From Helicobacter sp. 11S03491-1 (GTDB lineage: Bacteria > Campylobacterota > Campylobacteria > Campylobacterales > Helicobacteraceae): a stretch of DNA of 64,000 nt. The notes below the pieces were generated by a model. The model saw only the letters and a list, made by a program, of their open reading frames with translations, was not told the origin of the DNA and did not search any database. The stretch covers positions 124,001 to 188,000 of the forward strand of contig NZ_MLAO01000004.1 of assembly GCF_002272835.1 (NCBI RefSeq). The letters run 5' to 3'. The position numbers and the translations under genes are program-made. Below, piece after piece: positions 6,622-26,292 of the stretch. Each line of letters starts with the position of its first letter. Position 1 is the first letter of the stretch.

Positions 6622-7089
6622 TTATTTAAAAGCATGTTCTTGATATTCTAAAATACGTTTATTTTCCTTGCTAATAACATATTCTTCATCATATGCCTTT
6701 TGGACTACAGATCGAATAATATCCCTTTGAGTCTCATAGCTGCTATCCTTTAGCATATCAAGCACGATAGAATAGTATTGAATATCTTGGACAATAATTT
6801 CAAATGACTTATCTCTATCTTGCATATAAAGTTTTTCATCTTTGGCATATTCAGATACGCAAATAACAACCCTATCAAATACTTTAGCAGCTAAATTTGA
6901 GGGTTTGATATTTTTATTGATAATTATTTTGGCTTGTTTGAGTTGATTTTCTAAATGAGGCCTGCCCATATAAACAAGCACAGGAAGCATAATCATTAAA
7001 GTATCAACTTTTGAACCCAAAGAACGAGTTTGCCACTTAATAAGAAATTTTTGCAAATAAGTAAAATTGGTTTTATCCGGCATCATCAT
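6622..7089 (-). CDS. Conserved hypothetical protein downstream of argB
   Basis: A 155-aa soluble, mainly helical protein with no domain I recognise. It is lysine-rich, has no signal peptide or membrane segment and no cysteine cluster. The start overlaps the argB stop by 4 nt (ATGA), so the two are translated from one message. The N-terminus has three Met codons in a row (MMMPDK) and the exact start is therefore uncertain by two residues. Its coupling to argB is the only clue to a role. Confidence 0.75.
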   Translation of the reverse strand: MMMPDKTNFTYLQKFLIKWQTRSLGSKVDTLMIMLPVLVYMGRPHLENQLKQAKIIINKNIKPSNLAAKVFDRVVICVSEYAKDEKLYMQDRDKSFEIIVQDIQYYSIVLDMLKDSSYETQRDIIRSVVQKAYDEEYVISKENKRILEYQEHAFK

Positions 7090-9173: not shown

Positions 9174-9413
9174 ATAGGGTTTGGTTGTCTTTTATTCTAA
9201 ATCCAATCAGCTAAATAAAATATATAGTTTATGATTTATCCACTAATTGAATTAGAATATTTTATTAAACTTAAAAAATATATCATTTGTGTGCAGCCAA
9301 AGCAAATACTCTCCTTAAAAACCAAAAACTCACTTGAAACTTTACCTCATCAAATTTTTGAGCTTTACTTAGATATAATATCGAATTATTTCTGCCTTCA
9401 TACAAGGATGCTT

Positions 9414-10247
9414 ATGGAAATTGGAAAAATACAAATCCTTCAAATCAAACGTTTTACCCAACACGGAGCTTATTTAAAAGATACCTCCTGTGATCAGGAA
9501 GTTTTATTGCCCAATAAGTTTATCTTAAAAGATTTTAAGGTTGAAGATTCCATCAAAGTATTTATCTATACAGATTCCCTGGATAGACCTGTTGCTACAA
9601 CTCAAACCCCTTATGGGACACTTGAAGACATACTTTTTTTGAAAATTCTCTCTATACAAGCTAATGGTTGCTTTTTAGATTTAGGCATTGATAAAGATAT
9701 TTTTATGCCCTCAAAAGCTCCTTATAGATTCCACATAGGGCAATCTGTTGGGGTAAGAATAACAAAAGATAAACAAAATAGATTGATTGCCGGGCTTGGG
9801 ATTAAAGAACATTTAATTCCCTACCCGCACAAAACAAAATATATTCAAATAGAAATTCTTCCTTTTGAAAAAACCCCCTTAGGAATAGGTTGTGTAGTGA
9901 ATAAAAAATACTATGGACTTCTGTATCAAAATCAAATTTTCTCTCCTGTTGCATTAGGCAAAAAAACACCGGCATATATCACAAATATACGATCTGATGG
10001 CAAGCTGGATTTATCTCTCAAACCTATCAATAACACAACTGAAGATAAATCGCGATTGCTGGAGCTTATTGCCAAAAATAAAATTTTAGAATTAGATTTT
10101 AATTCTTCTCCTGAAATAATCAAACAAACTTGCCAAATGAGCAAAAAAAGTTTCAAAACCCTTATCAATGCTTTGCTTAAGGAATCAAAAATCAAGATTC
10201 TTGAAAGCTCGAAGCACCCCGGTCAAAAATCAATTCATCTTATCTAA
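9414..10247 (+). CDS. CvfB-like S1 RNA-binding protein
   Basis: A 277-aa cytoplasmic protein of the CvfB family: several S1-type OB folds followed by a C-terminal winged helix. MEIGKIQILQIKRFTQHGAYL is the first S1-like domain, and FLKILSIQANGCFLDLGIDKDIFMP is the clearest S1 motif. The tail TCQMSKKSFKTLINALLKESKIKI is the wHTH. The start at 9414 has AAGGA 5 nt upstream; the open frame reaches back to 9231, but that part has no family similarity. CvfB in Staphylococcus affects virulence gene expression; the role here is unknown. It ends 4 nt into the convergent rclA-like gene. Confidence 0.85.
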   Translation: MEIGKIQILQIKRFTQHGAYLKDTSCDQEVLLPNKFILKDFKVEDSIKVFIYTDSLDRPVATTQTPYGTLEDILFLKILSIQANGCFLDLGIDKDIFMPSKAPYRFHIGQSVGVRITKDKQNRLIAGLGIKEHLIPYPHKTKYIQIEILPFEKTPLGIGCVVNKKYYGLLYQNQIFSPVALGKKTPAYITNIRSDGKLDLSLKPINNTTEDKSRLLELIAKNKILELDFNSSPEIIKQTCQMSKKSFKTLINALLKESKIKILESSKHPGQKSIHLI

Positions 10248-23055: not shown

Positions 23056-23648
23056 AAAAAATTTTTATTTTCCTATGCTTGTTTCTGTATATATCAGTGG
23101 GTAGAGAAAATCCATTTGAACCCTTACTGACTCCAAAAGAAAGTTCTCATGACTCCTCTAAAAATAGTAAAAATTATTTTGAAAATTTTGACTTCAAACT
23201 CCCTACTACAGCTAGAATTTTAAAAAGTATCACCGTTACTTATGAAAATATTGATGGATCAATCAATCAAAAAACTTTAGACATTGATGAAAGCATTGAT
23301 TGGCATTATCCTTTGAGATTGAGTCAAAAAAGTGCTATCGTTTCTGAAACAACCAGTTATTACACTATCTCACCTTTTGAATTTTTTATCAAAGGAAATA
23401 AACTTTATATCCATACTGCTGCCAAAATTCAAAGAAATTTTCTTCTTCCAAATCCTTATCGCATTGTTATTGATGTAGACAGAAAAGATCCTAGCATTAA
23501 TAAGAATATTGAAATAAACAAAAAATATTTTACAAAAATATCTATAGGCACACACAATGCTTTTTATCGTATTGTTATCACACTTGATGGGCAATACCGG
23601 TATGAAGTAAATCGCGAAAATCAATATTATGTCCTAAGCGTGCAATAA
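23052..23648 (+). CDS. AMIN-domain periplasmic protein
   Basis: A 198-aa secreted protein. The signal peptide is MKKIFIFLCLFLYISVG; the mature start ENPFEPLLTPKE is typical of this family in Helicobacter and Campylobacter. The C-terminal half (IQRNFLLPNPYRIVIDV to RIVITLDGQYRYEV) matches the AMIN fold, which in AmiC and PilQ binds peptidoglycan or targets proteins to the septum. It is coupled to the FtsB-like gene upstream and to aroK downstream. Confidence 0.75.
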
Positions 23649-24139
23649 TGCAAAATAATATTGTTTTGATTGGGTTTATGGGATGTGGCAAAACAACTAT
23701 AGGCACGCATTTAGCGAAACATACAGATAAATATCTGATAGATACAGATTCTCTTATTAATCTAAAAGTTTCTTGCAGTATTAAAGAAATTTTTGATTCC
23801 TATGGAGAAAAATATTTTCGCACTCTAGAAGCAGACTTTATCAAATGGGCACAAAAAAGTATTTGCAATGCTATCATCTCTACAGGTGGGGGTATGCCTA
23901 TTTTCAATCCAGTCAATGCAATGGGAAAGGTATTTTATCTCAAGATTGATTTTGAAGCAATATGCAGGCGTTTAAATTCTTCAGAAATTGCTTCCAGGCC
24001 TCTTTTTTCGGATTTAAATAAAGCCTATGAACTCTATATCCAACGTGAGAGTATTTATGGAAAATCTGCTGATGTTATTATTGATGCAAAAGCACCCATC
24101 AATCAAATTCTTACCCAAATTCTTAAAAATACACTCTAA
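23648..24139 (+). CDS. aroK: Shikimate kinase
   Basis: AroK phosphorylates shikimate at the 3-OH with ATP in the chorismate pathway. The 163-aa product has Walker A IGFMGCGKTTIG, the shikimate-binding DTDSLI and FRTLEADF segments, STGGGMPIF, and the lid ASRPLF with Arg. The start shares one base with the preceding stop (TAATG). It is the last gene before the CRISPR array. Confidence 0.96.
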   Translation: MQNNIVLIGFMGCGKTTIGTHLAKHTDKYLIDTDSLINLKVSCSIKEIFDSYGEKYFRTLEADFIKWAQKSICNAIISTGGGMPIFNPVNAMGKVFYLKIDFEAICRRLNSSEIASRPLFSDLNKAYELYIQRESIYGKSADVIIDAKAPINQILTQILKNTL

Positions 24140-24169: not shown

Positions 24170-24666
24170 GTTTTAGGCAGTTTTTAAATTCTTCTATGCT
24201 AAAATTTTGAAAATTAGTTACTAACCACCCAATCGTTTTAGGCAGTTTTTAAATTCTTCTATGCTAAAATATCGATATTGCCCTGAGTGATGAGAAAATT
24301 GTTTTAGGCAGTTTTTAAATTCTTCTATGCTAAAATCAAATGTTTCTATACTCTTTTGAATGTCTGTTTTAGGCAGTTTTTAAATTCTTCTATGCTAAAA
24401 TAAACCCCACGTTAAAAGTAGAACTTTTTTGGGTTTTAGGCAGTTTTTAAATTCTTCTATGCTAAAATAATGTGATTATAAATAATGCCTCCAATGATGT
24501 TTTAGGCAGTTTTTAAATTCTTCTATGCTAAAATAATCAAAAAGCAATTTTATAATCAAGTGTGGTTTTAGGCAGTTTTTAAATTCTTCTATGCTAAAAT
24601 GAAAAATTAAATCAATGCCTACAGAAGAGCGTTTTAGGCAGTTTTTAAATTCTTCTATGCTAAAAT
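24170..24666 (+). CRISPR. Type II (II-C-like) CRISPR array, 8 repeats, 7 spacers
   Basis: Eight identical 36-nt repeats, starting GTTTTAGGCAG and ending CTATGCTAAAAT, lie at 24170, 24235, 24301, 24366, 24433, 24499, 24565 and 24631. The seven spacers are 29, 30, 29, 31, 30, 30 and 30 nt. The GTTTTAG start and TAAAAT end are those of Cas9-linked repeats in Campylobacter and Neisseria. In those species each repeat end acts as a -10 element, so every spacer would have its own promoter; TATGCTAAAAT would serve here. The direction is set by the downstream tracrRNA, whose anti-repeat matches the repeat 5' part. No repeat is degenerate, so the array is not visibly decaying. No cas1, cas2, cas9 or csn2 gene is present in the window. 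Confidence 0.97.
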
Positions 24667-24667
24667 A

Positions 24668-24707
24668 GACCTTGTTTTTATTCCCTAAATTTGGGAGAAA
24701 AAAGGTC
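24668..24707 (+). terminator. Imperfect hairpin between the CRISPR array and tracrRNA
   Basis: GACCTT (24668-24673) pairs with AAGGTC (24702-24707), TTTT pairs with AAAA inside it, and CCC/GGG closes a TAAATTT loop. It begins 2 nt after the last repeat. It may end crRNA transcripts before the tracrRNA promoter, but it has no T tail on the plus strand. Confidence 0.4.
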
Positions 24708-24727
24708 AAAAAGCATAGAAAATATGC

Positions 24728-24733
24728 TATAAT
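24728..24733 (+). promoter_or_regulatory. -10 box of the tracrRNA promoter
   Basis: TATGCTATAATACC contains a perfect TATAAT preceded by the extended -10 TATGC. A transcript would start at about 24740, 7 nt before the anti-repeat. The same TATGCT is the end of the CRISPR repeat, and AGCATA (24712-24717) pairs with it, giving a small palindrome over the promoter. Confidence 0.7.
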
Positions 24734-24739
24734 ACCAAT

Positions 24740-24825
24740 CTTTAGAAGAAGAATTTAAAAACTGCCTAGAATAAATGGTTATAGGGTTCCATGTGGAGTT
24801 ACAATCTCCGAAAAACCCTAAAATA
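24740..24825 (+). ncRNA. tracrRNA
   Basis: The trans-activating CRISPR RNA pairs with the repeat part of pre-crRNA, allows RNase III processing and is the scaffold for Cas9. At 24747-24768 there are 22 nt exactly complementary to the repeat (AGAAGAATTT to CTGCCTA), continuing imperfectly for 4 nt. The tail then follows the C. jejuni tracrRNA plan: AGGGTT pairs with AACCCT, and inside it GGAG pairs with CTCC around a TTACAA(T) loop that is conserved in C. jejuni. It is on the same strand as the array and 74 nt after it. The 3' end is estimated; no T-run terminator is seen, only AT-rich sequence. Confidence 0.9.
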
Positions 24826-25071
24826 ATAAATATTTTTCATTATCTTCAAGCCTTTTAAAACAACTTTCAAAAATAAATCAATATTTTTAGCAAATTTTTC
24901 TCTAACAAATATCCGGTAAATATCCACATTTAGTCTAATAACCCACAATGCAAAAAATTAGGGCTATCAAAAACTAAAATTTGAATAAATAGTAGTTTTT
25001 ATAAAAACATAAAAAAATTCCTAAGCCTAGCCAATCCAATTAAGCAATACATAGAGAGAAAGGAGGGGATC

Positions 25072-25491: not shown

Positions 25492-26292
25492 ATGGATTCA
25501 AACAACAGCAGACGAAGTTTCCTGACAACCATGTCTTTGGGACTTGTTGCTACAGGGATTGGGGCTGGTAATGCCCAAGCATTTACCCTTAAAAATCCCG
25601 GCAGAGATAAGCAAGATCCCAGATACATAGGGCAGAAGGGAAAACGTTTTGGAATGGTCATCGACTTACGTAAGTGTGTAGGATGTCAGGCATGCACAGC
25701 CTCATGCAAATGCGAAAACAATGTCCCTACAGGGCAATACCGCACTTATGTTTCTGAATATGAAATAGGCGTATTTCCAAATGTAAGAAAGGCTTTTTTA
25801 CCCCAACTGTGCAATCATTGCGAAAATCCATCTTGCGTGAGCGTATGCCCAACAGGAGCAACCTTTAAGCGTGAGGATGGGATTGTAGTGGTTGATGATA
25901 CAGTATGTTGGGGTTGTGGTTATTGCATCAATGCTTGCCCTTATGATAAAAGATTTTTCAATAAACTCACCAAAGTAGCCGATAAATGCACATTTTGTGC
26001 CCATCGAGTGGATAAGGGATTGCTACCTGCATGTGTGGAAACTTGTGTAGGGGGTGCAAGAGTATTTGGAGATCTCAATAATCCAAACTCTGAAATTTCA
26101 AAGCTTTTAAATATGTTCCCAACCAATGTAATGAAAAAAGACCAAGGTACAAATCCTAGAGTTTTTTATATAGGATTGAATGATGAAATTTCAGATATTC
26201 CTGTGAGTGAAGCAATCTTAGATGATTTGGCTAAAAAAATAGACAAAACTCCTTTAGCACAATGGAGTGTCGCTTATGAAGGAGGAAAATAA
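25492..26292 (+). CDS. ttrB: Tetrathionate reductase iron-sulfur subunit
   Basis: TtrB carries electrons between the membrane subunit TtrC and the catalytic TtrA. The 266-aa product has a twin-arginine signal (SRRSFLTTMSLGLVATG, cleavage near AQA). Four cysteine clusters follow: CVGCQACTASCKC, CNHCENPSCVSVCP, CWGCGYCINACP and CTFC with CVETC, i.e. four [4Fe-4S] sites as in the DmsB/NrfC family. SD AGGAGGAG. The B-C-A gene order and the TtrA sequence decide the assignment to tetrathionate reductase. The end overlaps the first possible start of ttrC. Confidence 0.9.
   Translation: MDSNNSRRSFLTTMSLGLVATGIGAGNAQAFTLKNPGRDKQDPRYIGQKGKRFGMVIDLRKCVGCQACTASCKCENNVPTGQYRTYVSEYEIGVFPNVRKAFLPQLCNHCENPSCVSVCPTGATFKREDGIVVVDDTVCWGCGYCINACPYDKRFFNKLTKVADKCTFCAHRVDKGLLPACVETCVGGARVFGDLNNPNSEISKLLNMFPTNVMKKDQGTNPRVFYIGLNDEISDIPVSEAILDDLAKKIDKTPLAQWSVAYEGGK

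Follow-up and report, generated by a model that had tools for sequence, protein, structure and literature searches.

We consider it highly probable, judging from sequence features, that the CRISPR array, leader and tracrRNA found in the window (the whole 64-kb stretch of DNA analysed here) constitute a dispersed memory cassette that works with one Cas9 in trans, and we regard its activity and expression as candidate properties. The earlier note on this DNA had described array and tracrRNA as a self-contained unit, and had offered a distant Cas9 acting in trans as one option. Both array and tracrRNA are complete, but the unit is not self-sufficient as the cas genes are found on another contig, and the option of a distant Cas9 is supported by the one cas9-cas1-cas2 locus of the genome, which has an identical repeat and tracrRNA.

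The array (24170-24666, plus strand) consists of eight 36-nt type II-C repeats, GTTTTAGGCAGTTTTTAAATTCTTCTATGCTAAAAT, starting at positions 24170, 24235, 24301, 24366, 24433, 24499, 24565 and 24631, along with seven spacers which are all distinct and of regular length (29-31 nt). The identity of all eight repeats was confirmed, and the earlier argument that such identity speaks against decay seems reasonable. In C. jejuni and type II-C systems new spacers are inserted next to the leader, at the last repeat, and every repeat is a promoter (PMC12080349); in the window the last, leader-proximal repeat is found at 24631-24666 (plus strand), and the final letters of each repeat, TATGCTAAAAT, form an extended -10. 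No Rfam family reached its gathering score in the window, the unit did not match any plasmid or phage, and neither the repeat nor the tracrRNA was matched among the viral contigs.

Between array and tracrRNA we find a leader (24667-24722, plus strand) with a GACCTT...AAGGTC hairpin and an inner CCC/GGG stem (z = -3.1). It is followed by the extended -10 of the tracrRNA, TGCTATAAT (24725-24733, plus strand), which is the same in all copies, and from the position of this element the tracrRNA should start at about 24741, that is, 74-75 nt past the last repeat. The tracrRNA itself (24741-24822, plus strand), with anti-repeat, linker and nexus/terminal hairpins, is identical in the three units of the genome, on contigs C4 (the window unit), C7 and C8. 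Its anti-repeat (24747-24771, plus strand) forms 24 Watson-Crick pairs over 25 positions, 22 of them consecutive (24747-24768), and one wobble. The previous description of a complete tracrRNA on the same strand, 74 nt past the array and with a 22-nt exact anti-repeat, is confirmed, while the consensus promoter ascribed to it holds only in part; the extended -10 is present but there is no -35, and a sigma-70 scan revealed neither a full promoter nor a U-run terminator. The pairing of crRNA and tracrRNA, which the earlier note had proposed to check, was predicted at -38.1 kcal/mol for the repeat:tracrRNA duplex versus a mean of -12.3 kcal/mol (sd 2.9, lowest -24.0) for 200 shuffled repeats, and is far outside chance.

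Upstream the unit is flanked by aroK (shikimate kinase; 23648-24139, plus strand) and downstream by a ttrB-like gene for a 4Fe-4S protein (25492-26292, plus strand), part of a 4Fe-4S/molybdopterin oxidoreductase operon; these are the flanks that had been named before. With aroK on one side and a respiratory operon on the other, the unit is located among core and metabolic genes and not on an integrative and conjugative element. On its 3' side aroK has a different neighbour in every relative inspected, hence an empty site at aroK is not demonstrable. A tblastn search of the 64-kb window with the genome's own Cas9, Cas1 and Cas2 found nothing, in accordance with the previous statement that the window holds no cas gene or fragment. 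Some cas1/cas9-like matches at the DNA level (33 bp at 85%; 22 bp) were rejected as chance, as tblastn finds nothing.

The assembly of this genome comprises 1.83 Mb in 33 contigs. A search of the whole genome for cas genes, as suggested in the earlier note, revealed one complete cas9-cas1-cas2 locus with the identical repeat on another contig, C7. It encodes the single Cas9 of the genome, a CjCas9-like protein of 1070 aa with HNH and RuvC along with the CjCas9 WED (wedge) and PI (PAM-interacting) domains, and cas1 and cas2, both confirmed by Pfam, adjoin cas9. The open reading frames listed for the locus are cas9-cas1-cas2 only, without csn2 or cas4, and this gene content, with cas9 next to cas1 and cas2, makes it a type II-C locus. 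Its array has 22 copies of the window repeat, followed by the same leader and tracrRNA. A third unit of array, leader and tracrRNA was detected on C8, flanked by HU-like DNA-binding protein and GAPDH genes and, on the opposite side, by a diacylglycerol kinase region. It is likewise without cas genes, and no cas fragments were found at it. In the C8 array eight repeats are perfect, and a further, degenerate one stands at the 5' end, opposite to the leader-proximal end.

The three units are closely related outside their spacers. With the window as reference, leader and tracrRNA (161 nt) are 99% identical on C7, with one substitution, located in the leader, and 97% identical on C8, which has a 5-nt insertion in the leader. 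Beyond the tracrRNA the C7 unit enters cas2, whereas C4 and C8 have a 138-nt tail (24821-24958 in the window, plus strand) without any difference between them. This tail is absent from the C7 unit, and elsewhere in this genome and in six related genomes we found only chance-level stretches of it. A perfect tail common to C4 and C8 implies that one of these units derives from the other, or that they had one (lost) parent. The assembly of a draft genome may, it should be noted, go wrong at identical stretches of about 270 nt. No spacer is common to the C4, C7 and C8 units (36 spacer positions compared); hence the window unit was not a whole-array copy on arrival, or its spacers have been fully turned over since.

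Further evidence of how such units arise comes from a sister species of the same genus, G002, which has one cas-linked unit (contig C31) and two full orphan units (C85 and C108). An alignment of 427 nt with 95% identity links the C85 unit to C31; it continues through the tracrRNA and into the last 48 codons of cas2, where it ends. As the match ends inside cas2, we take C85 to have been copied from part of the cas locus. The repeats tell a similar story. In C31 the oldest repeat is of the CTTCTT type while the six younger, leader-proximal ones are CTTCTC, and in C85 all eight are CTTCTC. Given that acquisition in type II-C takes place at the last repeat (PMC12080349), seeding of C85 from the leader end and later regrowth with new spacers would be expected to produce just such a pattern. 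The repeat variants in G002 also mark the leader end, in accordance with the C8 array, whose degenerate repeat is the one farthest from the leader. From what is seen in G002, this supports, short of proof, that the window array may have been filled by Cas1-Cas2 in trans.

In the same sister species we observed two natural single-guide-like fusions, at L136:4348-4580 (contig C44) and at L065:2306-2401 on the minus strand (contig C46). In both the last repeat is directly joined to the 3' half of the tracrRNA (AGACTGTCTAGAA...), the leader and the upper anti-repeat being deleted, and a 12-bp repeat:anti-repeat stem and the tracr hairpins are retained. C44 has three repeats and C46 one. A C-to-T change that keeps a G-U pair is common to the two, which indicates a common origin.

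Another relative, G005, has two arrays on separate contigs (L053, L223 and L224, on its contigs C24, C10 and C4) with the same leader-tracrRNA start at the contig edge, and its cas9 contig begins at that same start. It seems likely that G005 has more than one unit, through duplication of a unit or of the locus, seen here across assembly breaks. On contigs C18 (L220:2303-2404, 6798-6833 and 9338-9439) and C4 (L218:3133-3366) of G005, mini-arrays and single copies of the host repeat are scattered along a contig that has a CagE/VirB4-like fragment, and between broken reading frames. These scattered elements resemble the dispersed arrays of CampyICE1. A tracrRNA model scan of 121 genomes of the family gave strong matches in this genus only.

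The cas locus of this genome (L011:10500-13652) and the orphan array C108 of G002 (L064:1431-3106) both adjoin the same Mu-like prophage segment, which includes a tail tape-measure gene and is truncated in G002. On contig C10 of this genome a lone repeat, with its last base changed from T to C, is located in a Mu-like prophage (L013:3150-3216) and is preceded by a TATAAT-like element and 22 nt. When these 22 nt were taken as a guide, neither the seven genomes compared nor the cas9 locus held a target for them. The lone repeat is a candidate repeat-mimic RNA anti-CRISPR, for which Racr (PMC10651486) offers a comparison, or a chance remnant.

We suggest the following course of events for the window unit. 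A leader-proximal fragment of the cas locus, with the last repeat or repeats, the leader, the tracrRNA and sometimes a piece of cas2, would have been copied to a new site. There each repeat, having its own -10 element, could start a crRNA, and the local or main tracrRNA (those of C7 and C8 being identical) would pair with the window crRNA and load the distant Cas9 encoded on C7. Cas1-Cas2 probably serve the window cassette in trans as well, and by adding spacers at the local leader they would let every cassette grow its own memory.

To search for the origin of the spacers, as the earlier note had proposed, we compared them with seven related genomes, phages and viral contigs, and the window spacers had weak, mismatched partners only. 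Five of the seven were without any better-than-chance partner in these sets. Spacer 6 has an above-chance match of 26/30 to an HNH-like ORF located on C7 (BLAST E = 6e-4), with three mismatches at the PAM side, and spacer 3 a weak one of 24/29 to a ParA-like gene of a 10.5-kb contig; all matches of window spacers had at least four mismatches, and no short guide to a chromosomal promoter was found. Among all spacers compared with phages, C7 spacer 3 gave the one match, a weak one. Both a Helicobacter prophage record and genome G004 have Mu-like gpT head genes that it matches, which suggests that the system may record phages. Perfect self-matches were observed for C7 spacers 17 and 13 (L108:10399-10428 and L107:3005-3034), in a malic enzyme gene and a 775-aa ORF; in either case the match is antisense to the gene and its mRNA. 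Perfect spacer self-matches also occur in G002 and in G003, where ruvC is matched. For C. jejuni, host-derived spacers are reported (PMC4283603). The 3' flanks of both C7 self-matches do not fit the C. jejuni NNNNRYAC motif, and the 3' flanks of the few protospacers (among them ACGACTAA, TCGGTCTT, TTGATCCA and GGGATTGA) gave no clear PAM motif, none of them fitting NNNNRYAC.

Loss of cas genes is a well-known origin of orphan arrays, and the window unit could accordingly be the remnant of a second complete CRISPR-Cas locus, of which only array and tracrRNA were left after the loss of cas9, cas1 and cas2; an earlier complete copy may have existed at C4 or at C8. However, neither the window nor the C8 site holds any cas fragment, the tail after the tracrRNA is not cas-derived, and the tracrRNA has not diverged from its counterpart at the intact locus, the two being identical. 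As the orphan of G002 moreover was made by partial copying, with the cut within cas2, we find this origin unlikely. A misjoined array that belongs at the C7 or C8 locus is more doubtful still. The identical sequence in common and the 33 contigs of the draft would allow for such an artefact, but the three units differ in their spacers and in their flanks on both sides, the C4 and C7 contigs extend tens of kb beyond the units, and the same arrangement is found independently in the sister genome.

The earlier note had also considered a separate life for the unit, for example guided repression, in which Cas9, directed by crRNAs or the tracrRNA, would repress genes of the chromosome. An action of CjCas9 on endogenous RNAs is known (Dugar 2018, as cited in PMC12080349), and the two C7 spacers with perfect matches to own genes, one of them that of malic enzyme, are antisense to the mRNA. 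For the window unit, on the other hand, the idea finds no support in the spacers, whose partners are weak and mismatched (26/30 for spacer 6 and 24/29 for spacer 3); there is no conserved spacer and no match to the cas9 promoter region, and seven differing spacers resemble ordinary memory. A regulatory role of this kind seems very improbable, and a memory cassette served from a distance is the reading we prefer.

The C7 locus is a normal member of the C. jejuni/Helicobacter type II-C systems, with which it shares the 36-nt repeat GTTTTAG...TAAAAT with internal -10, the CjCas9-type Cas9, and a leader and acquisition end beside the tracrRNA. In those systems array and tracrRNA adjoin cas9-cas1-cas2, whereas here two extra units without cas genes are found at distant sites. 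The earlier claim that array and tracrRNA adjoin cas9 in known type II-C loci is nevertheless too strong, as CampyICE1 has three dispersed short arrays and one Cas9, with the tracrRNA beside an array and away from cas9 (PMC8743540). CampyICE1 is without cas1-cas2, is located on an integrative element and has a tracrRNA at one array only, whereas here cas1-cas2 are present, the window unit is placed among core and metabolic genes, and each unit has its own identical tracrRNA. The orphan CRISPR2 of Enterococcus faecalis has repeats identical to those of a cas-linked array and works with the Cas9 of that array in trans (PMC4580645, PMC5491264); it is of type II-A, and unlike the units described here its interference required cas9 plus the tracrRNA from the CRISPR1 locus. 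Orphan arrays served by a distant Cas9 (E. faecalis CRISPR2) and dispersed arrays (CampyICE1) are thus already known. What is different here is that every dispersed unit has a leader and a tracrRNA, that two of them are in core chromosomal regions, and that intermediates are preserved in relatives. In the literature searched, the coverage of which is incomplete, we came across no account of array and tracrRNA being repeatedly duplicated together.

The usual view of orphan arrays is that they are relics, or that they depend on a tracrRNA encoded far away. Each orphan described here, in contrast, has its own complete tracrRNA and leader. We would give even odds to the wider proposal that the cassette of array, leader and tracrRNA is a unit of duplication, which takes its origin at the leader-proximal end of the cas locus and is established at new chromosomal sites, with one Cas9-Cas1-Cas2 set serving several independently growing memories, and that in the sister species it has also collapsed, through deletion of the leader and the upper anti-repeat, so that a small array is joined to a natural single-guide RNA. 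The intermediates in G002, namely the cas2 stump, the repeat variant of the leader end and the fusion of array and tracrRNA, suggest how such cassettes arise. They make it possible to test whether one Cas1-Cas2 chooses among several leaders, why several copies of the tracrRNA are kept, and whether single-guide RNAs may come about by simple deletion.
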